From positions 1 to 40,684 of the IMG/VR virus record IMGVR_UViG_3300035663_000032: a stretch of 40,684 nucleotides of DNA, one strand, 5' to 3'. The position numbers and the translations under genes are program-made. Below, piece after piece: positions 1,996 to 27,421 of this stretch. A model generated the notes under the pieces. It worked only from the letters and a program-made list of their open reading frames with translations. It made no database searches and was not told where the DNA came from. Numbering within the stretch: the stretch's first letter is position 1; the number at the start of each line of letters is the position of its first letter. This DNA is from a virus.

Positions 1996-4122
1996 ATGGC
2001 CGGACTATCAGCATACCTCGGACAGACACAGGCGGTCGCGGCACAGATGCCGACCATGCAGGCGGCTCGGATGCCGGACGCCTCGGGCGCGGACGCGACA
2101 GCGCGGCTTGGCACGGCGTTGTACGGAGTCGCGGATCAGATCGCCACGTACGAGCACAACAAGCAGGTGCAGTGGGCCGGGAAGACCTACGCGGACGCGG
2201 CAAGCAAATGGTACACGCGCCTGGAACAGCTTAAACAATCTGCGGGCGACGGGGCTCCGAACTTCGTAGAGAACCTCCAGGGTGAGTTTCAGAAGTTCCG
2301 CGCCGAGACACTCGCGAGCACCAAGAACCATGTTGCCAAGCAGTTCTTGGACGAGAAGTTCACGGGCTTGAATGCGGACTTGAGCCGACAGGCGCTCCAC
2401 TTTCAGGCACACGCTCAGGTGCAGCAGTCCGAGAACAACATCGAGCAGACGGTGAACACGCTTGGAACAAGCGCCATGCCGTACGAGTCCAAGGTGGACG
2501 CCCTGAACGGGGTAGTGGACACCTCCACGCTTCAGGCTGGGTATAAGACGGCCTACAAGATGAAGGCGCGCATTGCCCTCGCGAAAACGCAGGGGATGCA
2601 GGAGATCGAGCGAGACCCGCAAGCCGTGTACGACATGCTCAAGGGGCGCATTGTCGGGGAGCTGGGCGAACCTTCGCTTGATCCCACGAACATTCAGCGC
2701 CCGTCATGGGTGGATGACCTGCCAATGCAGGAGCGGCTTTCGTTGGAGTCTCATGCGCTCTCGCGCTCGCACCAACGGACCGGCCAGCTGCGAGCGGGCG
2801 TTGAGAACAAGGCGAACGATCACGAAGCGCGGTTCCTTCAAGGGCTCCCGGTGGCGGAGCCTATGACGAAGGTGGACTTTCAAGCGGCATACCGGCCCGA
2901 AGAGGTGGAGCCGAAGTGGGCGCAGTATGTGACACGGCAACAGCTCGGGGCAGACATCCAATCGATGGGGGCGATGTCGGCCGGGGATATTGCGGGCGTG
3001 CTACAGAAGACCCGCACTGAAATGGAGGCGGCCACGGAAGGTCAGTCGGTCGCGTTTGTGGATCGGTACAACCGGACACTGGAGGCGGCTAAACGTATTC
3101 AGCAGGCTCGGGAGAAAGACCCGATGGCAGCGGCGCTGCAAGGCCAGCTGTTTGGGGTAGAGTCTTTGGACTACTCGGACCCCGTGAAGTTTAAGGACCA
3201 GATGGCAGCCAGGCAGGCTGCGGCTATCCGCATTGGGGCCGAGTGGGGAGTTGATTCCGGCCCTCTATCCAAGGATGAGGCTTCCAAAGCGTCCGCGTTT
3301 CTGGCGTCGGCTGGGGTTGCTGACCAGATGCAGTATCTGCATCGCGTAAAGGGGGCACTCACAGACCCGAAGGTGTACGGCGCAGCAGTGAAGCAGATTG
3401 CCGAGGGGAACCCTGTGGTGGCTGCTGCTGGACACATTTTAGGGCAAGACCGTGCGGCAACAGTGGCCCCGGCTGGGTGGTTGAGTTCGTCTCAGCAACT
3501 CGCTCCGCAGATTGTCGCCTCCAGGATGCTTTCCGGGCTCGCGACTATGCGGGAGAGCAAAGATGTGTTCAGTCCCGTGGCTGACCGAGTTTTTCAGGGG
3601 CAGTTCTGGGCAGAGGTTGGCGATGCACTGCCAAGCAACCCGGTCGCAGCGCAAGCCATGTACCAAAGCGCGAAGGCCTACGTGGTCGGGAAGCTGTCAC
3701 AGGAGGGGAATCTGAATGCGCTTTCGGAAGGATTTATTGGAAAGGCCGGCACTGTGAGTGGCGAGTTGGCGAGCGAGGCTGTGCGCGCTGTCACGGGCGG
3801 GATTGCCACGGTGAACGGGCACAAGGTTATCCCTCCTTATGGGGCGGACCCGTTGCAGTTCGAGCCGTTGGTCCGAGCTGAAACCAAGCGCATCCTCACG
3901 GAGGCTGGGGTGCCCGCAAAGTCCCGCCTGCTCCCTTTTGAGCAATACCGGGTGATCCCTGGAGGAGGCCAAAACCGGTACATGCTCACGGCCGGCGGAC
4001 AGACGCTGATCAACCCGAAGACGCAGGAGCCTGTGATTCTCGATTTCAACAACCCGAAGGCGTGGGAGCTACCCAAGCCAGCAGAGTGGCCAAGAGACCA
4101 GATCAACACCATCGGCTACTAA
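1996..4122 (+). CDS. gp15-like internal virion/ejection protein, phage A
   Basis: A 708-residue, mostly helical protein, close to T7 gp15 (~750 residues) in length and position between gp14-like and gp16-like genes. It is rich in Ala, Gln and Lys with no signal peptide or clear TM segment. Gp15-type proteins are ejected into the periplasm and join the DNA-translocating channel. Its start has an AATTTATG context without a Shine-Dalgarno sequence, four bases after the preceding stop. The phage B version begins at 39524 and is nearly identical. The assignment rests mainly on synteny and size. Confidence 0.68.
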   Translation: MAGLSAYLGQTQAVAAQMPTMQAARMPDASGADATARLGTALYGVADQIATYEHNKQVQWAGKTYADAASKWYTRLEQLKQSAGDGAPNFVENLQGEFQKFRAETLASTKNHVAKQFLDEKFTGLNADLSRQALHFQAHAQVQQSENNIEQTVNTLGTSAMPYESKVDALNGVVDTSTLQAGYKTAYKMKARIALAKTQGMQEIERDPQAVYDMLKGRIVGELGEPSLDPTNIQRPSWVDDLPMQERLSLESHALSRSHQRTGQLRAGVENKANDHEARFLQGLPVAEPMTKVDFQAAYRPEEVEPKWAQYVTRQQLGADIQSMGAMSAGDIAGVLQKTRTEMEAATEGQSVAFVDRYNRTLEAAKRIQQAREKDPMAAALQGQLFGVESLDYSDPVKFKDQMAARQAAAIRIGAEWGVDSGPLSKDEASKASAFLASAGVADQMQYLHRVKGALTDPKVYGAAVKQIAEGNPVVAAAGHILGQDRAATVAPAGWLSSSQQLAPQIVASRMLSGLATMRESKDVFSPVADRVFQGQFWAEVGDALPSNPVAAQAMYQSAKAYVVGKLSQEGNLNALSEGFIGKAGTVSGELASEAVRAVTGGIATVNGHKVIPPYGADPLQFEPLVRAETKRILTEAGVPAKSRLLPFEQYRVIPGGGQNRYMLTAGGQTLINPKTQEPVILDFNNPKAWELPKPAEWPRDQINTIGY

Positions 4123-4133
4123 TTTCCCCGCTC

Positions 4134-7100
4134 ATGAGCTTCTTTTTTGATTTCAGTCCTCAGGACAAACAGACCTCGCTCGATTTGGCGCAGATGAATC
4201 CGCTACCAGATCCGGGGACACGTCCCGATCCCAGCTTCTGGAATGGTATGGGCTGGAATGGGGAGGGCGCGATTCTGCCCACCTTTGTGCGACAGGGGGC
4301 ATTGGGGGCACTGGATAATGTGGAGCAGTTCGGCGCGGATATGTTGAGCCGCGGGCTCGATATGATCCCGGGCAAAATATCCGGCACCTTGCAGGGGTAC
4401 GTTCAGAAAGCGGACGCACGCTGGAGAGATTTCAGCGCGCAGGTGAAGGCGCTGGACATGGCCCCGGAGGATTTTGGGTTGGCGACACAGATCACCTCGG
4501 GCTTCATCAAGGTGGCCTTGGAAATGGGCGCAACGCGCAGCCCTGCGAGCGCATTCACCACGGTGGGCTTACTTGAAGGCAACGCCGCCGAGAACGATGC
4601 AGTAGCGCGTGGGGTGGACAAGCAGACGGCAAGCGAGGTTGGCCTTGTTACTGGGCTTTCTGCTGCCGCTGGGGTTGTTCTCCCATACGCCAAGGCGGGA
4701 CTGACGGCCCTTCAGAACGTTGGGTTTGGGGCTACGGTAAATACCGCGTTCGGCATCGCTGGCAGGGCGGGAACCTCAGAGGTCTTGCGGGCGAACGGGT
4801 ATCCCGAGATGGCGGATCAGATCCGAGCCTTCGACTTGGCATCCGTCCTTGTGGACGCTGGGATGGGCGCGGGATTTGGGGTGCTTGGGCACTACATGCA
4901 CAGCGACAACCCCGGCATGATTGCGCGCGCACTGGAGGCGCGGGACGCCGGGCTAACGCTCACTGAGGCGGCGGCAAGGCACCTACGGGCACCGGGATCC
5001 ACGCCGGATTCTCCTGCATCCATTCCCGCCAATTTTGAGGCGCGGGCCAACGTGCTCGAGAATTCTGCGAGGTTTGAGGAGTTGGCCACCCGGGGCGATG
5101 AAGATCGTTTCCAGCCTATCCCTCCGCCTGAAGGGGCTGAATTTGTGGAGCGGAAACCCAACACCGAAGCCATGGCGGCGCTAGAAGCGGCACTAGAGGA
5201 GATGGGCCCGACCCCGCCAAAAAAGGTGCAGGCGAAAGATTTCAAAGAGTGGTCATTCAACGAGGACCCTCTGGTTCGGTATCTTGTGGATAACCTTGGG
5301 GGCCTGATGTCCAAGTCCGGCTATCGAGCAAAGCACGGGAAGGAGAAGCTGGCTCGGAATAGTGAGCTTTGGGAGGCGGCCTCCAAGCTGGAGAACCCGC
5401 GCCATAATGAGATTTTCAAGAAGAACGGGCTCACTCCCGACGAAGCGGTGACGGCGTTGGCTGAGGCTGGCTTTTTGCCACACGACGCACACGTGGATCA
5501 GCTTTGGGAGGCATTGAGGCAAAAGTCGGCGTCTGACATGGAGCTGTCCAGGCAGGCCACCGGAAGGGCTGCTGACATCAATGAACAGGCGATAGCCGAG
5601 TACGAGAAGGCGCAAGATCCGGCCACATACGCCGAGACGGCTGAAGAATCGGCCGCGAACGCGCGAAAGCTGGGCGAGTCGCTGGGAGTGCCGGAAGAGC
5701 AGTACGACGGACTGTATTCAAAGAAGCCCGAAGAGGACATTGGGGCGGAGCTGATGTGGCGCGTGGATAATGATTACGATGCGCTATCCAAACAGTACGC
5801 TGAGCTTGACGACCCACAGCGTGGAATAAGCACGGACGGAGGGCGGATTTTTAACACTGATTACGGGCGGGAATTGTCCGCAGGGTTTCGCGCGGACCGA
5901 ACTCGAGCCCAAGAGGTACACGACGCCGCAAGTTATCTTGTTGGAAAGCTATACACCAAGCGATTGTCTGAGCCAACGCCGGAAGGGAGGGAACCACGCG
6001 TCCTTTTAACTGCTGGCGGAGCTGGCGCCGGTAAGTCCTCGAGTCTTGCTACGTTAGGAGCTAGCGCGGACCGATTTGAGATTATTTACGACACCACGAT
6101 GAGCACGGCATCGTCGGCAATATCGAAGATAACCCAGGCGTTAGAGAGCGGGCGCGAGGTCTCGATTGTTTACACATACCGCGATCCTGTTGATGCGTTT
6201 GTGAATGGCTCACTTCCAAGGGCTATGGAAAGCGGCCGCACTGTCACTGTCGAGGCTCACGCCAAAACACACAGCGGGTCGAGAGAAGTGATCCCGCAGT
6301 TAATAGAGAGGTTCCGAGGGGACGACCGGGTTGACTTTATTGTCGTTGATAATTCACACGGGCCGGATGGCGCCCAGCTTTCTAGTATTGAAAAGCTGCC
6401 GGAGGCGCATGATACTACGCTCGAGGGTACGCTATATGAACGTGCAAGGTCTGAATACGAAGCCGGCAGAATCTCAGAAGCAGTCTACAACGGAACCACG
6501 GGGAAGAGGAGCTTCCGGGATGACGCTCAAGGAGCACACGCTAGCGGCGGCGCAGGAAATGATTCACAGCCTGAATACGCACGCGAGGGAAAGCCATCGC
6601 AAGCTGGAAGCTCAGCGGAACGCGTTGAAGCGGTAACCAGAGAATTAACCGACACAGAAGACGGCAAGGCCGTGCATGAGTCGGGGCTTGTTTCTGTTGT
6701 TTACGACCCTTCCGAGTTTCCAAAGCGATCCGACGGACAAGAGCACGATCCACGCGCGCAGGCCGTATTCCAAGACGGCAAAGTTTATCTCGCTGCCAAG
6801 AACATCGAGCCCGGCCAAGTCCGAGCGTTGCTCCTGCATGAGGTCGGGGAGCATTTCGGAATGGAGCGAATGCTGGGCAGTGAGGTTTACGAGTCGCTTC
6901 TGGCTGATGTGCTGGCAAAGGCCGAGGCTGGGGAGAAGGCGTTTGCGGACGCGTTGGAGGTAGCACGCCGGGCGGATACACCCGAGCGGCACCTTGCCAA
7001 AGAGACCCTGGCTTACCTGATCCAAAATCACGCAGAGCTTGGGCTGGTCCAGCGGATCATCTCGGCCGTGAAGACGTTTGTTCACGGCGCGTTTGGCGGA

Positions 7101-9959
7101 AGGTTTGTGGAGTTGAATGCGGCCGATCTGCGTTACCTTGCCGAAGCGTCCCTTCGGCGTGTGGCGCGGACAGAGGGAGCGTCCCCGGTATCGAATGCGA
7201 CACACTACGCAGCCCAAGACGCACTGGACGCCAAGCACGACTCCGAAAGCCTCTACGCACTCAAGGCGGCCTCGGATGATGTCCGAAAGGAACTCCGGCG
7301 CGGCGGCTCCATTACTAACGCACTGCGGCTGGTCAGTGATGCGGCCGGGCGAAAGCTCACCGTCAGGGAAGCGTCAGGCTTGCGGGAGCGGCTACTGAAG
7401 GCGGCCACATACGTGGATTCTGCCATTGGCTCTCCTGAGATGCGGCTGGAAGCGGCGGCCAAGATGGTAGCGGAGTCGCTTGAGGCGGACGCTGTGCAGC
7501 GGGTGCAAAACGCCATGAAGAACCAGGCGGCAGCCAAGCGTACGGAGGCGGAGTTGGCCACCGTGTTGCGCCAAGGGATTCCGCTCTTTGGGAAACGGGG
7601 CGCGATCATGCGCTTGCTCGGGAATAACTATGACGGCCGGGCCAACGTGCAATCTTTGGAGGCGCACGTTACCGCGAAGCGGAATGAATCACTCCGGAAG
7701 TTCATCAGCCTCTATCATGACAGCGGGAAGTTTCTGGGCTTTTGGGAGAACGTGGAGTTCACCCATGATCTGATTCGGGAGGTGTTCACGCCGGGCTCCA
7801 CGGGGAACGCCAAGGCAGCCGAGGGAGCGAAGGTGTGGGGTGATGTGAGCGCGGATCTTCTGCAACAGCTTCAACAGGCAGGCCGCCCCATCCACGAGCT
7901 TGCCAACTGGGCAATCCCTACAAGCCATTCTCAGATCAAAATTGCAAAAGCAGGGATAGAGGCATGGGTGTCGCGCGTCTTCCCTTTGCTCAAGCGTGAA
8001 CGCTATCGGAACCCGGACGGAACACCGATGACTGACGAGCAGCTTGTGGGCTCACTTTCGCAGGTGTACGAGTCGCTGTCCACGGACGGCATTCTGGGAC
8101 AGGAGGCCGGAGGGAACAGTGGCGCGGCGAACATCGCAGGCCGACGCACTGAACAATCCCGATTCCTGCACTTCAAGGACGGGGACGCGTGGCTTGCGTA
8201 CAACAAAGAATTCGGGGACGGCTCGGTGTGGGTGACAATGCACGGGCACGTCAATTACACGGCGAAGCAGATCGCGCTGATGGAGAAGTTCGGGCCGGAT
8301 GCCAAGGGCAACTTCGCCCGGCTGGTGGACGGAGCCATGAAAGATGCGGCGCGACGCGACCCTGTTCACACCGACAAGATCAAAGAAGAAGCCGCGCTGG
8401 CGCTTCGGTTCATGGATTACCTCGTGGGGGATTTACCTAATCCATCCGCGAAGAATATGGTGAACAAGGTGTTCTCTCTCATCCGCAACACGCTCGTGAG
8501 TGCGCAGCTTGGGAGTTCGGTGATTCAGGGGCTGGGGGATGAGGTGATGCTTCGGGCGTCCGCCGCACTCCATGGAATTGCACAGGGCGAGATTACAAAA
8601 CTCCAAGCCCTTCTTGCTACAAGCGGCGATGCCAGGCACGACGCCATGGCGCTGGGGGCGGCCCTTCAAGACATCGCCCGGGAAACGGCCCGGTTTGGAC
8701 AGGAGACACTCGGCCCCACTTGGTCCAGCAAGATGGCCAACGCGACACTGAAGGTCTCTGGGTTGCACTTTCTGGACACTGTTCGCCGTGGGGCCATCAC
8801 GATGGGCCTTTATTCAAAGCTCGGGCAGCTGGCGAAGAAGCACGCGGACATTGGGGCGCTGGATGCAGACACGAACCGGCACCTACTCAGTCACGGGCTT
8901 ACGCAGGAGAATTGGCAGGCGCTACACCTTGCGGACAGGCACGACTGGCACGGAGTCGAGATCGTGACGCCGGAGGCTCTCGCGGCCCTACCTGATAGCG
9001 CAATCCAGCATCTTGCGGATGCTCGGGTGCAAACCATCGAAACCGCCGCGCTTGCGAAAATTGAGAACATCAAGAAGGCCGCGATGTTGGATGACGCCAA
9101 GAAGACCGAGCTGATCGGGCGGCTTATGAAGGCCACCGAAGCGGAGAAGCTGGGAGTGCATGACGCCATCCGGAACGAGGCGGTGCAGAAGCTGATTTCC
9201 ATCGGGAACATGGAAGAGGGGGCCGTGGTGCCGACTCCAGGGGCGATCCAGAATTTCAAGATGCAGGACGCCTATCGCGCGGGCACGTGGCGCGGAGAAT
9301 TGGCCCGTACCTTTTTCATGTTCAAGGGATTCGCGATGTCGCACTTCAACACGCAGATGGTGGAGCGTGCTGGGGGAATGCCGACTGTGGGCGGGAAGCT
9401 TTGGTACGGCGCAAAGATAATGGCGCAACTGACCGTTGCGGGAGCGGTGACGCAGATCCTTTCAGACCTGACCAAGGGGAAAGATCCTCGGAACTACCTC
9501 TCTCCAAACTCGCCGCATTTAATTCAAAACTGGATTGCTGCGGCGCTTCGCGGTGGGGCGCTCGGGCTGTACGGGGATCTTCTTTTTGCGGACGAATCCC
9601 GGCACGGACACAGCCCGGTCGCGGCCATGATGGGGCCGGCCGTTGGGCTGATTGAAAACGTGCTGGACCTCACCGTGGGCTCAGCGCACCGAATCGCTTC
9701 GGGGAAAGATCCTCACGTTGGAGCGAAGGCAATCAGCACACTGAAGAACATTGTCCCCGGGCAGAACCTTTGGTTCTCGCGCCTGTTTTTGGATCACCTG
9801 CTTGTTCACAACCTACAGGAGGCGGCGTCGCCCGGCTACATGTCCCGGATGAAGCAGCGCTCCCAGCGCTTTAACGGGCAATCGTTTTGGTGGCAGCCAG
9901 GAGGGCTTACGTCCCCAATGCGACCGCCCGACCTCTCGACGGTGGCCGGAAGCAACTAA
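4134..9959 (+). CDS. Giant gp16-like ejection protein with zeta-toxin-like kinase module (polyvalent protein)
   Basis: A 1941-residue protein in the place of T7 gp16 (~1318 residues). I chose the ATG at 4134 because it lies just after the gp15-like stop; an upstream in-frame ATG at 4062 would overlap by 61 bp. Order: hydrophobic Gly/Ala-rich segments (~115-260); charged helical region; Walker A GGAGAGKS at 628-635 followed by YDTTMSTASSAISKIT and a YTYRDPVDAFV segment, as in zeta-toxin-type P-loop kinases; HEVGEH at 902-907 (HExxxH, like the degenerate zincins of phage polyvalent proteins); long helical C-terminal half; membrane-like segments after ~1740. No lytic transglycosylase motif was recognised at the N-terminus, unlike T7 gp16. 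The gene presumably encodes a protein ejected with the DNA. Kinase activity is inference. Confidence 0.75.
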   Translation: MSFFFDFSPQDKQTSLDLAQMNPLPDPGTRPDPSFWNGMGWNGEGAILPTFVRQGALGALDNVEQFGADMLSRGLDMIPGKISGTLQGYVQKADARWRDFSAQVKALDMAPEDFGLATQITSGFIKVALEMGATRSPASAFTTVGLLEGNAAENDAVARGVDKQTASEVGLVTGLSAAAGVVLPYAKAGLTALQNVGFGATVNTAFGIAGRAGTSEVLRANGYPEMADQIRAFDLASVLVDAGMGAGFGVLGHYMHSDNPGMIARALEARDAGLTLTEAAARHLRAPGSTPDSPASIPANFEARANVLENSARFEELATRGDEDRFQPIPPPEGAEFVERKPNTEAMAALEAALEEMGPTPPKKVQAKDFKEWSFNEDPLVRYLVDNLGGLMSKSGYRAKHGKEKLARNSELWEAASKLENPRHNEIFKKNGLTPDEAVTALAEAGFLPHDAHVDQLWEALRQKSASDMELSRQATGRAADINEQAIAEYEKAQDPATYAETAEESAANARKLGESLGVPEEQYDGLYSKKPEEDIGAELMWRVDNDYDALSKQYAELDDPQRGISTDGGRIFNTDYGRELSAGFRADRTRAQEVHDAASYLVGKLYTKRLSEPTPEGREPRVLLTAGGAGAGKSSSLATLGASADRFEIIYDTTMSTASSAISKITQALESGREVSIVYTYRDPVDAFVNGSLPRAMESGRTVTVEAHAKTHSGSREVIPQLIERFRGDDRVDFIVVDNSHGPDGAQLSSIEKLPEAHDTTLEGTLYERARSEYEAGRISEAVYNGTTGKRSFRDDAQGAHASGGAGNDSQPEYAREGKPSQAGSSAERVEAVTRELTDTEDGKAVHESGLVSVVYDPSEFPKRSDGQEHDPRAQAVFQDGKVYLAAKNIEPGQVRALLLHEVGEHFGMERMLGSEVYESLLADVLAKAEAGEKAFADALEVARRADTPERHLAKETLAYLIQNHAELGLVQRIISAVKTFVHGAFGGRFVELNAADLRYLAEASLRRVARTEGASPVSNATHYAAQDALDAKHDSESLYALKAASDDVRKELRRGGSITNALRLVSDAAGRKLTVREASGLRERLLKAATYVDSAIGSPEMRLEAAAKMVAESLEADAVQRVQNAMKNQAAAKRTEAELATVLRQGIPLFGKRGAIMRLLGNNYDGRANVQSLEAHVTAKRNESLRKFISLYHDSGKFLGFWENVEFTHDLIREVFTPGSTGNAKAAEGAKVWGDVSADLLQQLQQAGRPIHELANWAIPTSHSQIKIAKAGIEAWVSRVFPLLKRERYRNPDGTPMTDEQLVGSLSQVYESLSTDGILGQEAGGNSGAANIAGRRTEQSRFLHFKDGDAWLAYNKEFGDGSVWVTMHGHVNYTAKQIALMEKFGPDAKGNFARLVDGAMKDAARRDPVHTDKIKEEAALALRFMDYLVGDLPNPSAKNMVNKVFSLIRNTLVSAQLGSSVIQGLGDEVMLRASAALHGIAQGEITKLQALLATSGDARHDAMALGAALQDIARETARFGQETLGPTWSSKMANATLKVSGLHFLDTVRRGAITMGLYSKLGQLAKKHADIGALDADTNRHLLSHGLTQENWQALHLADRHDWHGVEIVTPEALAALPDSAIQHLADARVQTIETAALAKIENIKKAAMLDDAKKTELIGRLMKATEAEKLGVHDAIRNEAVQKLISIGNMEEGAVVPTPGAIQNFKMQDAYRAGTWRGELARTFFMFKGFAMSHFNTQMVERAGGMPTVGGKLWYGAKIMAQLTVAGAVTQILSDLTKGKDPRNYLSPNSPHLIQNWIAAALRGGALGLYGDLLFADESRHGHSPVAAMMGPAVGLIENVLDLTVGSAHRIASGKDPHVGAKAISTLKNIVPGQNLWFSRLFLDHLLVHNLQEAASPGYMSRMKQRSQRFNGQSFWWQPGGLTSPMRPPDLSTVAGSN

Positions 9960-19867: not shown

Positions 19868-20036
19868 CTCAAGCGCCGACGCAAATCACAGGAGCCGAAC
19901 CGGGGAGATTGAAGCCGCGCTGGAGTGGTATTTCAAAAGCGGAGCAAGCGGGAGCGCTGCTTCATTTGCTGGGGTGGCATGCCACCAGCAATCCGGTTCG
20001 TTTGCCGAGGTGGCATGTCACCCGCAATCCAACTAA
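19809..20036 (+). CDS. Ribbon-helix-helix DNA-binding protein 2, with operators in its 3' end
   Basis: A 75-residue protein. Strand IQARVHS, helix A DLVMRIDSSADANH and helix B RSRTGEIEAALEWYF give a clear RHH fold. The start at 19809 overlaps gene 1 by 59 bp; the later ATG at 19857 would remove the DNA-binding strand. The C-terminal tail has a duplicated FAGVACHQQS / FAEVACHPQS element. That text is encoded by two palindromic GGTGGCATG(C/T)CACC sites, so the tail appears shaped by the operators. Confidence 0.65.
   Translation: MKPKTQIQARVHSDLVMRIDSSADANHRSRTGEIEAALEWYFKSGASGSAASFAGVACHQQSGSFAEVACHPQSN
19973..20022. promoter_or_regulatory. Two further palindromic operator sites inside the RHH2 gene
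   Basis: GGTGGCATGCCACC at 19973-19986 is a perfect palindrome; GGTGGCATGTCACC at 20009-20022 differs by one pair. They are spaced 36 bp apart and match the core of the operator at 19626-19639 (GGTGACATGTCACC). Binding at all three sites could loop or silence the RHH genes. Confidence 0.65.
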
Positions 20037-22120: not shown

Positions 22121-22482
22121 CGCTCGAACTCCCTTGGCCGCCATCGGTCAACCACTACTGGCGGCACATCACAAAAGGGCCAATGGCGGGCCGTGTTTTG
22201 ATCTCTAAAAAAGGCCGCGAGTATCGGGCGGCAGTCATTCGGTTAATCGCCGGGCTCCCACACATCCCGACGATGAAGGGGCGGCTCATGGTCGCCATGA
22301 CGGCATACGTGCCAGACCTCCGGGGCCGAGACCTCGACAACATCCCAAAGGCGATCTTTGACGCCCTAACCCACGCCGGAGTTTACGCGGACGACCGGCA
22401 AATAGACCGCCTCTGGATAGAGCGCGGAGCCGTCACCAAGGGCGGAAAAGTAGTCCTAACAATCACGCAGTTAACACAATGA
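22117..22482 (+). CDS. rusA: RusA-type Holliday junction resolvase
   Basis: A 121-residue protein. It has the RusA N-terminus LPWPPSVNHYWRH and the catalytic region PDLRGRDLDNIPKAIFDALTHAGVYADDRQIDRLWIERG, with the conserved aspartates of RDLDN and YADDRQID that bind Mg2+. RusA cuts Holliday junctions and clears branched DNA before packaging. GTG start with AGGAGG five bases upstream. Length is normal for the family. It sits with recT and an SSB-like gene as the recombination module. Confidence 0.92.
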   Translation: MTLELPWPPSVNHYWRHITKGPMAGRVLISKKGREYRAAVIRLIAGLPHIPTMKGRLMVAMTAYVPDLRGRDLDNIPKAIFDALTHAGVYADDRQIDRLWIERGAVTKGGKVVLTITQLTQ

Positions 22483-23321
22483 ACCAATTAGCACTAAACA
22501 CACCAATCATCCCGTTTGACGACATCGAACGCATGGCAAACGTCATTGCCAAGAGTCAGTTGTTCGGGGTCAAAAACAAGGACCACGCTCTGGCCCTAAT
22601 GCTGATCTCCCAGGCGGAAGGCAGGCATCCAGCAATCGCGGCACGGGACTATCACCTGATCGAAGGGCGGGCAACGCTCACCTCGGACGCCATGCTGGCT
22701 CGATTCCAGCAGGCTGGCGGAAAAGTCGAATGGCCTGAGCTTTCAGATACCCGCGTTGCCGGAATCTTCTCCCATGCGAAGGGGGGCAAAGTTGAAATCG
22801 TTTGGACGATGGAAATGGCAGCTCGTGCCGGGTTGAGTACCAAGGCGCAACGAGACGGGAAGCCGAACATGTACCACAAGTTCCCCCGGCAGATGCTGCG
22901 GTCTCGCGTGGTTTCTGAAGGCATCCGGACGGTGTTTCCAGGAGTCATCGTCGGCACCTACACCCCAGAAGAGGCCTATGACATGGAGCCTGTTCGAGTG
23001 GTTGCAATCCCACGGGAGACCGATTCCAAAGCGAACGAGGTCCCCCTTTCGGAGATATTTGATGTCCCCGACCCCCTGTGTCTCCCGGAGTCATCCGACA
23101 TTGACCCACACATAGAGGCTCAGCGTCCGGCGCATCACCTCGACTCAGTTTTTGAGGGGCGAGACATCGCGACCATCAGCGCATTCCTGATTTCAAAAAA
23201 GGAAATCACCGAGGGGCAAACGTACCGCGACCTATCGCCAACATTCTCCCAGTTCATCGCAGACAACCAAGACCGCTTCTTTCAAGCCGTCGCAAAACAC
23301 GCAGCAACCACCGCAGACTAA
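22479..23321 (+). CDS. recT: RecT-family single-strand annealing protein
   Basis: A 280-residue protein. MANVIAKSQLFGVKNKDHALALMLISQAEGRHPAIAARDYHLIEGRATLTSDAMLARFQQAGGKVEW and the later KFPRQMLRSRVVSEGIRTVFPGVIVGTYTPEE are the typical RecT/phage recombinase core. The C-terminal ~100 residues are variable. The start overlaps the rusA end by 4 bp. No exonuclease partner (lambda exo or RecE) is recognised among the neighbours; the DUF1351-like gene downstream often accompanies such systems. Confidence 0.85.
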   Translation: MNQLALNTPIIPFDDIERMANVIAKSQLFGVKNKDHALALMLISQAEGRHPAIAARDYHLIEGRATLTSDAMLARFQQAGGKVEWPELSDTRVAGIFSHAKGGKVEIVWTMEMAARAGLSTKAQRDGKPNMYHKFPRQMLRSRVVSEGIRTVFPGVIVGTYTPEEAYDMEPVRVVAIPRETDSKANEVPLSEIFDVPDPLCLPESSDIDPHIEAQRPAHHLDSVFEGRDIATISAFLISKKEITEGQTYRDLSPTFSQFIADNQDRFFQAVAKHAATTAD

Positions 23322-23816
23322 ATGAAAATCACAATTCAACCCCCATTCGGAAAGGGCAACCTCCCAGAGCCTGGACAATACAAGGCCCGGATAGTTAAGA
23401 CCGAAGACAAGATTGCCAAGTCCGGCAAAGACATGGTGGTGCTTCATCTGGAGGTGTCGCCCGAGAAGAGCCTCACGCAGCACTACCTTGTGACGGTCCT
23501 CGATGATAACGGGGAGCCCAATAAGTCCACGATGGCTAATTACAGCGACATCCTTCGCGCTGTTGGTGCCAAGATTGAAGTCGGGCAAGAGGTCAATGTC
23601 AGCTCAAAGACCTTCCTCGGTCGTGAAGCTGTCGTGACCCTCGGTTATGACGACGACGACACCGAGAAGAAGTTCTTCAAGGTTATCGTCTGGCATGACG
23701 CCGCTTCAATCCCGGCCCCGAAGCCTGCGGCTTTGGTTCCAAAAGCGATTGCGCCAAGCGTCCTCCCTCATGATGTGGGCGGGAATGACATTGATGGCGA
23801 CGACATCCCGTTTTAA
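23322..23816 (+). CDS. Single-stranded DNA-binding-like protein (DUF669-type)
   Basis: A 164-residue protein. The N-terminal ~120 residues have an OB-fold-like strand pattern (GQYKARIVKTEDKIAKSGKDMVVLHLEV...GQEVNVSSKTFLGREAVVTLGYDD). The tail is acidic and ends DIDGDDIPF, the C-terminal tip used by SSB proteins to recruit partners. It follows recT directly, which fits a recombination/replication SSB. The family is close to the DUF669-type proteins found in recT operons. Confidence 0.75.
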   Translation: MKITIQPPFGKGNLPEPGQYKARIVKTEDKIAKSGKDMVVLHLEVSPEKSLTQHYLVTVLDDNGEPNKSTMANYSDILRAVGAKIEVGQEVNVSSKTFLGREAVVTLGYDDDDTEKKFFKVIVWHDAASIPAPKPAALVPKAIAPSVLPHDVGGNDIDGDDIPF

Positions 23817-24556
23817 TGGACGCTCCACTCACATTGACCGGAGACGGGTACGGACTCCAGATTAGCGCCGAAGCGCAGCAGATTAAGGATGCGTTACTTG
23901 ATGCTTCCTCAGCCATAAAGGCAGTTACGTCAGAGGACGAGGCGACCGTTGCGAGAGCGCAAAAGAAGGAACTGGCCAAGTTCCGGACCACCTTGGAGAA
24001 GTCACGGAAGGCCGTGAAGGAGCCATTTGAGACTGGCGGGAAGCGAGTCGATAAGATGGCCAAGGAGTTCGGGCTGGAAGCAGTTCTTGAGGAAGACCGG
24101 CTGGAAGGTTTGATCGTCAAGTTTGCCGAGAAGGAAGCCGCCAGGCATCGCGCCGCTGCTGAACTGGCCCGTAAGGAAGCTGAGGAGATGAGGATCAAAG
24201 CCGAGGCGGCTCAGCGGCAAATTGAAGAGCTTGAGAAGCAGGCGGCGGCGGCAAGGCTGTTTGCTGAGCAGGGGCCAACGGTGGCTGAAGTGCAGGCTCA
24301 AAAGACCATCGAGGCCATCGCTCTCCACAAGGCGGACATAGCCGAGCGGGTCAGTGTGGTCATCGACGCGAAGCCTCCGACTACCGGGACTAAGATGGAA
24401 TGGGATTATGAGGTCGAAGACTTGGCAAAGCTTCACTCGTACTTCCCGGAGTTCGTAGAGCTGACAGCGCGGAGATCGGCCATCCTGCAGTATATCCGAT
24501 CCCAGCCTCAGCAGCTCCCCGGCCTTCGGGTGTTTGAAAAGGTGGTTCTGAAGTGA
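23816..24556 (+). CDS. DUF1351-like coiled-coil protein
   Basis: A 246-residue protein beginning at a TAATG overlap. N-terminal helical part (ALLDASSAIKAVTSEDEATVARAQKKELAKFRTTLEKSRKAVKEPF), long coiled coil (KEAARHRAAAELARKEAEEMRIKAEAAQRQIEELEKQ), and a C-terminal domain with KMEWDYEVEDLAKLHSYFPEFVEL. This order is that of DUF1351 proteins, which occur beside RecT/Erf-like recombinases in phages. Molecular role unknown; probably assists recombination. Confidence 0.65.
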   Translation: MDAPLTLTGDGYGLQISAEAQQIKDALLDASSAIKAVTSEDEATVARAQKKELAKFRTTLEKSRKAVKEPFETGGKRVDKMAKEFGLEAVLEEDRLEGLIVKFAEKEAARHRAAAELARKEAEEMRIKAEAAQRQIEELEKQAAAARLFAEQGPTVAEVQAQKTIEAIALHKADIAERVSVVIDAKPPTTGTKMEWDYEVEDLAKLHSYFPEFVELTARRSAILQYIRSQPQQLPGLRVFEKVVLK

Positions 24557-25654: not shown

Positions 25655-25863
25655 GCCCGCTACGACAGAAGATGCAGGCGTGGGTGGATGAGCTTATCCA
25701 GATAAGCGATGTCGTTCTACTGCGGGACACTGAAGCGGATTTATTCAGCGGCTATGAGAAGGCCTTAGAGAAAGCTAGGCAGAGGCAACGCGAGATAAAA
25801 GAGGAGGTACGAAAGCACCTTCTTTTCGAGTCTATGAAGTCAACTGTTGGAGGTTCCGAATGA
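25651..25863 (+). CDS. Small helical protein
   Basis: A 70-residue protein, all helical by inspection (MQAWVDELIQISDVVLLRDTEADLF, then YEKALEKARQRQREIKEEVRKHL). ATGA overlap with the replication protein gene. Function unknown. Confidence 0.55.
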   Translation: MSPLRQKMQAWVDELIQISDVVLLRDTEADLFSGYEKALEKARQRQREIKEEVRKHLLFESMKSTVGGSE

Positions 25864-26651
25864 ACTACGTTCCTTGGCATATTGGTGATTACAAGTCAGC
25901 GACAGCTCACCTCTCGAACGAGGAGGATATTGCATACCGGCGATTGCTCGAAATGTACTACGACACCGAGATGCCGATTCCGGCTGATTACATTGGACTG
26001 GCCCGGCGATTGCGCGTGGATCTCGCGGCGCTGGATGTTGTCCTGGGCGACTTCTTCACGCTTGGGCCAGATGGGTTCCGCAACGGAAGGGCGGACGAGG
26101 AGATCGCGCTATACCACGAAAAGAAGGCCATCGCAGAGAGGGCAGGGAAGGCGTCAGGCGTAGCGAGAAGGAACGGACGTTCAACGACCGTTCAACGACC
26201 GTTCAACGGACGCTCAACGGAAACGAACGACCGTTCAACGGACGTTCAACGGAAAGGCGATTCCGTTCAACCAACCAAGAACCAAGAACCAAGAACCAAG
26301 AACCACTCTCCTGAACCAGTTGGTTCAGGGAGTGCAGAGGGATCGCCTTCGGCTCTCGTCGCGGTTCCCGCTCCGTCACAGGCTCCCGCAAAACCGAAGC
26401 AGGCGTGTCGGCTCCCGGAGCAGTGGGGGCCAACCGACCGGCACAGAGCGCTAGCGGCCGAGACCGGCAAAGACCTCGATGCAGCAGCAGGCCGGTTTAG
26501 GAATCACCACAAGGCCAAGGGCAGTAGGTTTTTAGATTGGGATTTGGCGTTTTCAAACTGGCTCTCTGAGCGGTTCGCCAGAGACCCGCAGCGGCCGCTC
26601 ATTCCGGTCAATACGCAGCTCGTGGACTACGGCCAAGGAGGCGCATTATGA
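25860..26651 (+). CDS. Replication initiator-like protein, DUF1376 (lambda O position)
   Basis: A 263-residue protein. Residues 1-~85 are a DUF1376/YdaU domain: YVPWHIGDYKSATAHLSNEEDIAYRRLLEMYYDTEMPIP, then LARRLRVDLAALDVVLGDFF. A low-complexity linker (~100-180) is encoded by iteron-like repeats. The C-terminal domain (PEQWGPTDRHRALAAETGKDLDAAAGRFRNHHKAKG...DWDLAFSNWL) resembles the C-terminal part of phage replication proteins that contact the helicase loader. It is followed by a DnaC-like gene, as in lambda O-P-type cassettes. Probably binds the repeats in its own gene. Confidence 0.8.
   Translation: MNYVPWHIGDYKSATAHLSNEEDIAYRRLLEMYYDTEMPIPADYIGLARRLRVDLAALDVVLGDFFTLGPDGFRNGRADEEIALYHEKKAIAERAGKASGVARRNGRSTTVQRPFNGRSTETNDRSTDVQRKGDSVQPTKNQEPRTKNHSPEPVGSGSAEGSPSALVAVPAPSQAPAKPKQACRLPEQWGPTDRHRALAAETGKDLDAAAGRFRNHHKAKGSRFLDWDLAFSNWLSERFARDPQRPLIPVNTQLVDYGQGGAL
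26178..26329. repeat. Putative phage replication origin: iterons, 7-bp repeats and inverted repeat
   Basis: CGTTCAACG units start at 26178, 26189, 26200, 26211 (one C/T change), 26232, 26243 and, with a last-base change, 26264. The spacing is 11 or 21 bp, one or two helical turns. Four tandem AACCAAG units follow (26273-26300). A perfect inverted repeat CCTGAACCA-GT-TGGTTCAGG occupies 26310-26329. Iterons inside an initiator gene next to a helicase-loader gene parallel the lambda origin within O. Confidence 0.75.
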
Positions 26652-27421
26652 TTCAGCTAAACAGCTTAGGCCAAGAGGCGGCAAGCTGTGAGGATTGCGG
26701 CGCTGAGTTCACTCGGCTGTTCCTTGTTGGATTTGCCGGATTCTGCACCCGTAGATGCGCCGTCTGCTGTGGTCTATGGGAAGCGAGGGAAGAGGCGGCA
26801 AGAACGGGCAGGCAAGTGGCAAGGATCGTGGATTCTGAACCGGAGCTGACCCGCAAATTTGGGTTCCCTCCTCGGTACCTCGAATGTTCGTTTGCGAATT
26901 TCGACCCAGGCACGCCCAACAAAGCCGCGACTCTCGCAGCGGCTCGCAAGTGGGTGGCTGCGATCAAGGCGAGCCCGTCGGGCGCTGGGAATCGCCTGCT
27001 TATCGGCTCGGTTGGCGCTGGGAAAACACACCTAGCGGTTGCTATAGGGAGGGCCGTTGCTGAGGCTGGTATCGCGGTAAAGTTTGGCAAACTGGCGTCG
27101 CTTATGGCCGAGGTTAAAGCGGGCGCTTTGGATGATACTAGCGACGGGGAGGCGCGGGTTATTGCGCAGTTAAGCAAGGTGCCATTACTGATAATAGATG
27201 AGGTATTTCCTCAGGCCGTTTCAGAGAAAATGTGGCCGCGCTTATTTGAGATATTAGACAATCGTTGGGATAACATGAAGCCAACGCTTATGACGACAAA
27301 CTTATCCCGTGAAGGACTTGCGCAGTTTCTAACCGAGAGGCTGGTTTCGAGACTCACCGGTCCGGAGACTGTCTTGGTATGCGATGGGGTGGACTTCAGA
27401 AAACATGCAGACGCAAAATAA
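26648..27421 (+). CDS. DnaC/IstB-like helicase loader ATPase
   Basis: A 257-residue AAA+ protein. An N-terminal zinc-binding region has C14, C17, C33 and C37. Walker A is GSVGAGKT at 120-127, Walker B LLIIDE at 180-185, sensor I TTNLS near 216-220, and an arginine-finger-like SRL near 234-236. DnaC-type proteins load the host replicative helicase at the phage origin. AAGGAGG lies upstream of the ATG, which overlaps the initiator stop. Slightly long for DnaC because of the zinc region. Confidence 0.85.
   Translation: MIQLNSLGQEAASCEDCGAEFTRLFLVGFAGFCTRRCAVCCGLWEAREEAARTGRQVARIVDSEPELTRKFGFPPRYLECSFANFDPGTPNKAATLAAARKWVAAIKASPSGAGNRLLIGSVGAGKTHLAVAIGRAVAEAGIAVKFGKLASLMAEVKAGALDDTSDGEARVIAQLSKVPLLIIDEVFPQAVSEKMWPRLFEILDNRWDNMKPTLMTTNLSREGLAQFLTERLVSRLTGPETVLVCDGVDFRKHADAK

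Follow-up and report, generated by a model that had tools for sequence, protein, structure and literature searches.

Does a gene of the DUF1376 family, which is common in phages and prophages and officially without a function, carry the replication origin of its own phage? The question is raised by IMG/VR virus record IMGVR_UViG_3300035663_000032, the 40,684 bp of which are referred to here as the window, where direct repeats and an inverted repeat lie inside the coding sequence of such a gene.

Initiator gene and its neighbourhood

The protein encoded by this gene scored 74.5 bits against PF07120, above the Pfam gathering score of 30.1. In an AlphaFold2 model, residues ~110–190 form a low-confidence, disordered linker, and the repeats sit between the modelled domains at residues 1–107 and 193–240, to which functions can be assigned provisionally (Table 1). 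Both this arrangement and the DnaC-like gene that follows had been described in an earlier, sequence-only reading of the window, and they are borne out by the model and by the phrog_50 match. Structural comparison of the N-domain model returned many winged-helix nucleic-acid-binding chains at Z 5–6.3, a weak level, and a Foldseek search with the initiator model gave no significant match, with weak matches alone (E > 0.2). The modelling is thus a weak but consistent hint that the DUF1376 N-terminal domain has a winged-helix fold. A DUF1376 protein 100% identical to that of the window is encoded on a viral contig from a different sample (L006, IMGVR_UViG_3300042338_000479).

Table 1. Features of the candidate origin and its surroundings, in window coordinates
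Feature	Position	Strand	Basis or remark
RecT-like annealing protein, DUF669/SSB-like protein and exonuclease; upstream DNA-metabolism context	22479..24556	+	Pfam, PHROG
DUF1376 replication initiator gene, 263 aa, putative origin carrier	25860..26651	+	Pfam PF07120, E = 9e-21; PHROG 'primosomal protein' / 'replication initiation protein'
DUF1376 domain at the N-terminus (residues 1–107), putative winged helix and putative iteron binder	25860..26180	+	pLDDT >90 over most of 1–107
Iteron array, seven 9-bp units CGTTCAACG (≤1 mismatch)	26172..26272	+	Helical-turn phasing; all three codon phases
A/C-rich 7-mer array AACCAnn, putative unwinding/single-strand element	26269..26307	+	Units at 26273, 26280, 26287, 26294, 26301; overlapping AACCA at 26269
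Perfect hairpin CCTGAACCA-GT-TGGTTCAGG, 9-bp arms	26310..26329	.	Downstream of 7-mers; folded-strand stem reaches 26305–26333
C-terminal helical domain (residues 193–240), exchangeable; putative helicase/loader contact	26436..26579	+	Model; C-terminal parts vary among relatives
DnaC-like helicase loader (AAA+)	26648..27421	+	phrog_50, E = 4e-44; IstB/DnaA-type ATPase in Pfam; 4-bp overlap with initiator gene

Repeats in the linker

The elements follow one another in the order of seven 9-bp units, five AACCA units and a perfect inverted repeat. The CGTTCAACG-type units start at 26178, 26189, 26200, 26211, 26232, 26243 and 26264, that is, at spacings of 11, 11, 11, 21, 11 and 21 bp, and these near-palindromic 9-mers are helically phased, in agreement with the sequence-only reading. 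The exact 9-mer CGTTCAACG occurs five times in the whole 40.7-kb window, each time within the linker array, and CGTTCAACGnnCGTTCAACG pairs gave 8 matches where 0.11 were expected. The first four of the five AACCA units (26273–26294) read AACCAAG, in agreement with the four 7-bp direct repeats noticed earlier, and the four-unit AACCA pattern was matched twice (0.00 expected). With ~43% GC, this zone is below the GC content of the window, but is not strongly A+T-rich. Vienna DNA folding of the G-strand of the 7-mers, which has GG every 7 nt, revealed nothing special, quadruplexes lying outside the folding model.

The inverted repeat is perfect, as had been reported, and as folded DNA the hairpin has z = –4.2; for the identical sequence in locus L255, p = 0.025 under the synonymous null described below. 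Its own loop is without the C-TNNN-G motif discussed below for relatives. The zone had previously been delimited as 26178–26329, of which the end and the repeats hold, while the start has to be moved, as the repeat zone begins at 26172.

Constraint on the DNA

A protein-preserving null was constructed from 20,000 synonymous redraws of the same peptide with the codon usage of the window. The observed count of seven 9-mers exceeded the best redraw, which had five (p < 5e-5), and low probabilities were likewise obtained for the lag-11 period of the linker (p < 5e-5), its lag-7 period (p = 5e-5) and the AACCA run (p = 1.5e-4). Since synonymous recoding almost never recreates the repeats (p ≤ 1.5e-4), the DNA itself is constrained: the direct repeats in the initiator coding sequence are maintained beyond the demands of the protein, as the sequence-only reading had supposed. 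That the constraint acts on the DNA rather than on the peptide follows also from the periods of 7 and 11, which unlike those of peptide repeats are not multiples of 3, and from the iteron units, which occupy all three codon phases. Codons within arrays are skewed towards the 7-mer, with proline encoded by CCA in 90% of cases (33% elsewhere) and arginine by AGA in 78% (14% elsewhere).

Recurrence across the DUF1376 family

Relatives were gathered from bacterial genomes and viral contigs using a profile of 40 N-domain sequences, which ignores the linker; a search of bacterial genome contigs with the single window protein found no relatives, and the 40-sequence profile succeeded. The viral set leans to the window's own repeat type because the best-scoring 80 were taken, and the genome set is broader. 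Among 122 non-redundant DUF1376 genes, periodicity beyond the synonymous null (p ≤ 0.01) was present at lag 7 in 78 (64%), at lag 14 in 62, at lag 11 in 40 (33%) and at lag 6 in 16, each of the remaining lags from 4 to 13 being significant in at most 12; the corresponding numbers for 101 control genes from the same loci were 1 (1%), 1, 0 (0%) and 2. Because the genes share ancestry, these counts are not independent trials. Both periods were significant in 32 genes, and in every one of them the 7-mers come after the 11-bp array. Absence of the repeats from related phages had been named as a result that would speak against an origin; they are present family-wide, under DNA-level constraint.

The family 7-mer consensus is AACCAWN, with positions 1–5 conserved at 81–90% and positions 6–7 free, and the composition of the arrays is A 52%, C 31%, G 6.5% and T 10%. 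The AACCAnn form is not universal: runs of at least three AACCA units were found in just 25 of 79 genome-set loci, and other DUF1376 linkers have AACCAG 6-mers, CACCAnn, CCAACA, ACCCAWT-like units or purine 5-mers in the same place. Long (NQ)n peptides are encoded by AACCAG 6-mer arrays at this position in Massilia, Duganella, Janthinobacterium and related genomes (L203, L208, L248, L249, L253). The DUF1376 gene of Pseudomonas phage UFJF_PfDIW6 (L174:1192-1989) has the same AACGACCGTT iterons, with a GAAGA 5-mer array in place of AACCAnn, and its significant lags are 5, 10 and 11.

When viral contigs were scanned blindly for four AACCAnn units, the matches led back to the same family. Among the 80 loci in the matches listed, at least 73 are DUF1376 by Pfam and up to 76 match the corresponding PHROGs, while at several of the remaining loci the gene runs off the contig end; the arrays lie on the coding strand and mid-gene in all but a few. 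By blastn against phage genomes, the repeat zone alone of the region gave matches, in Moraxella phages, at 82–86% DNA identity, despite only ~40% identity between their proteins and that of the window. Compared with the iteron array of Mcat13 (L002:1123-1950), that of Mcat18 (L003:1501-2295) is shorter by 33 bp in frame and that of Mcat25 (L001:1123-1557) by 11 bp, which splits the reading frame; the Mcat25 initiator is annotated as two genes. DUF1376 genes on plasmids were considered as possible independent replicons, but the six records were phage-like or chromosome-sized and not decisive.

Inverted repeats of unrelated sequence recur 3′ of the 7-mer arrays in relatives. Sites were chosen by a C-T[AG]NV-G loop alone, at most 46 nt from the array, and such a motif was present in 41 of 88 genes. 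At least three further stem pairs flank 27 of these 41 motifs, compared with 0.3% of motifs elsewhere in the same genes; in an independent set the numbers were 30 of 42 near the array and 5 of 305 elsewhere. About half of the genes have the loop motif near the array and about a third a real stem, and, taken overall, the best stem that follows an array is 5.1, compared with 4.0 in synonymous redraws. A test of the whole linker for hairpins gave a weak result relative to the synonymous null (2 of 122 at p ≤ 0.01), and the position- and loop-specific tests are the informative ones. The hairpin is a less certain third element, since some clades have a T-P-E-G-V peptide that determines it in part.

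Iteron similarity follows similarity of the N-domain (partial r 0.243, p = 0.002) more closely than that of the C-domain (partial r 0.053, p = 0.04). The C-terminal parts of relatives are not alike, their matches being to O-like, DnaD-like and other initiation PHROGs, and the gene after DUF1376 encodes a P-like loader in 31 and a DnaC-like loader in 12 of 106 cases, DnaB-like helicases and primase-helicases also being found. As the iterons track the N-domain, the C-terminal parts are exchanged and the next genes belong to the helicase machinery, we infer a division of labour in which the N-domain serves the iterons, and probably the 7-mers too, and the C-domain the helicase machinery.

Comparison with known origins

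The lambda origin lies in the middle of gene O, where iterons adjoin an A+T-rich tract (PMC7466680, PMC3349717); this tract shows strong strand asymmetry (PMC5043065). When the synonymous-null lag test was applied to lambda O, lags of 20, 23 and 24 were recovered, which are the spacings of its four annotated iterons; no 7-bp array was detected. In lambda and the Stx phages P27 and 933W the origin lies mid-initiator gene, where the N-terminal DNA-binding domain is succeeded by iterons, by a strand-asymmetric tract that opens readily and by the C-terminal helicase-side domain, with a helicase-loader gene next; the window resembles them in this order, with a candidate origin and a putative unwinding tract. 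The lambda iterons are 18 bp long at 20–24-bp spacing, whereas those of the window are 9 bp at 11-bp spacing. Lambda O belongs to PF04492 (6e-36) and the window protein to PF07120 only, and BLASTP between the two gave no significant similarity; the earlier statement of a lambda-like anatomy in a different protein family is supported.

The iterons of iteron plasmids are helically phased (PMC5043065), and winged-helix Rep proteins of the RK2 type bind both iterons and one strand of the repeats in the unwinding element (PMC4081077). Plasmids of the RK2/TrfA type likewise have phased iterons beside a repeat-bearing unwinding element; in RK2 this element is A+T-rich, consists of 13-mers and lies outside the rep gene, whereas the window has A/C-rich 7-mers within the coding sequence of another protein family.

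The initiator of bacterial oriC is the AAA+ protein DnaA, and the DnaA-trio repeat has a period of 3 nt. DUF1376 loci, the window included, differ in that they have no DnaA-type initiator and a repeat period of 5–7. The likeness is in the placing of duplex-binding sites, putative in the window, beside a short-period repeat of the single-strand type, as in the basal unwinding system of DnaA boxes and DnaA-trios (PMC6669920, PMC8235120).

The Rac prophage of E. coli K-12 contains a DUF1376 gene, ydaU (L333:7120-7977; 1421119–1421976 in the K-12 genome), followed by ydaV, which is annotated as a putative ATP-binding protein. Repeats of the TGTTCAAA type and a C7G5 palindrome occur in the ydaU linker, which differs from that of the window in having no AACCAnn array and a 23-bp lag as the only significant one. 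Rac has an active origin, oriJ (PMC3945230), for which the ydaU linker is, on sequence grounds, a candidate site; a literature search did not yield the map position of oriJ within Rac. Phage origins located inside genes and accompanied by helicase loaders were also looked for in the literature, with no match, and DUF1376 was seldom mentioned in the open-access literature searched, where no link to a replication origin was found.

Proposed origin and alternative explanations

We propose, with a probability of about 0.83, that the segment 26172–26333 is the theta replication origin of this phage, embedded in its initiator gene. Use as an origin is very probable by close analogy with lambda, and we conclude that the design would be that of a lambda-like in-gene origin in a different initiator family, with duplex iterons and a strand-biased short-repeat unwinding element. 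The putative winged-helix DUF1376 domain would bind the 9-bp iterons, one per helical turn, and wrap or strain the DNA, upon which the neighbouring T-poor AACCAnn array would open. One strand would then be held, most likely by the same initiator, because the array is found with DUF1376 irrespective of which C-terminal domain is present. The exchangeable C-terminal domain may recruit the loader specified by the adjacent gene (DnaC-like in the window, and P-like or DnaB in relatives), which would put DnaB on the opened strand, and the hairpin may mark the downstream edge, possibly as a strand-specific structure for loading or priming. GC skew, which had been suggested as a check, shows no switch here when taken at fourfold sites (0.112 to the left and 0.094 to the right), a measure that is uninformative because the phage genes run one way.

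The linker could instead be a conserved short linear motif (RSTxVQPTKNQEPxTKN) contacting the helicase, loader or SSB, with the DNA repeats as a by-product. Conservation of the peptide NQEPxTKN is visible in relatives, and 7-bp repeats always yield the same 7-residue cycle; however, the synonymous nulls retain the peptide and lose the repeats, synonymous positions in the arrays strongly favour the 7-mer, the 11-bp units occur in each of the three reading frames and the linker is modelled as disordered, which together leave this explanation very unlikely. An in-gene regulatory element, consisting of operators for DUF1376 autoregulation or of an RNA element (an A/C-rich tract and hairpin, such as a Rho-loading or pausing signal), appears similarly improbable. 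Many iteron-binding initiators also autoregulate, and signals of this kind would go well with an unstructured RNA, poor in G but containing C, ahead of a hairpin, but helically phased near-palindromic 9-mers fit the binding of duplex DNA, the site is mid-gene rather than at the operon promoter, and the whole set matches the lambda ori in position and order.

The least probable of the alternatives is neutral tandem-repeat slippage, tolerated in a disordered linker and without function. Differences among the Moraxella phages amount to exactly one or three 11-bp units, and the loss of 11 bp in Mcat25 shifts the frame; iteron units are gained and lost as whole helical turns, so slippage does occur. 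It leaves the conserved core unexplained, since the same core sequences are found in distant phages and hosts, with their order and coding-strand placement retained, and are not found in control genes; the core positions of the arrays are kept while positions 6–7 vary, unlike in fresh slippage.

If the in-gene origin is real, DUF1376 would gain a function as an origin-binding initiator, and the position of the origin would become predictable in many phage and prophage genomes, with AACCAnn tandem 7-mers after phased iterons as a simple DNA signature. The lambda solution of an origin inside the initiator gene would then exist in a different protein family, and would offer a natural system in which to study the reading of duplex iterons and of a neighbouring short-period array by a single domain.

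A second protein family

The matches listed from a scan with the tandem iteron CGTTCAACGnnCGTTCAAC comprise 80 loci. DUF1376 lies immediately upstream at 55 of these listed loci, and a few more are DUF1376 by Pfam or lie at contig ends. Ten of the listed loci are of an aligned Lin1244_N type, four of them confirmed as PF14297 in Pfam, and five are an unrelated Cys-rich protein with two units each. The Lin1244_N phage genes have the same CAACGACCGTT iterons, then a purine-rich AAAGT/AAAGG 5-mer array, in mid-gene linkers (L339, L349, L356, L358, L372, L376, L383, L389, L393, L399), and these linkers are candidates, judged from their repeats, for an in-gene origin in a second protein family. Comparison of the N-domain profiles of DUF1376 and Lin1244_N gave a colinear, weak match (probability 17%, E 0.0015).

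We tentatively suggest, at slightly less than even odds, that DUF1376 and Lin1244_N form one large class of phage initiators with a modular in-gene origin made up of iterons, a short-period array specific to one strand (AACCAnn, AACCAG or AAAGK) and a hairpin with a tetraloop; a single winged-helix domain would read the iterons as duplex and the array as single strand, with free exchange of the C-domain. Such a class would be a phage analogue of the bacterial oriC system that leads from duplex boxes to a single-strand repeat.

Elsewhere in the window, a single ORF of 1965 aa with a GTG start (4062–9959) takes up ~15% of the length, and a 36-bp unit that includes GGTGGCATGCCACC, an internal palindrome, is tandemly duplicated at 19961–20030.
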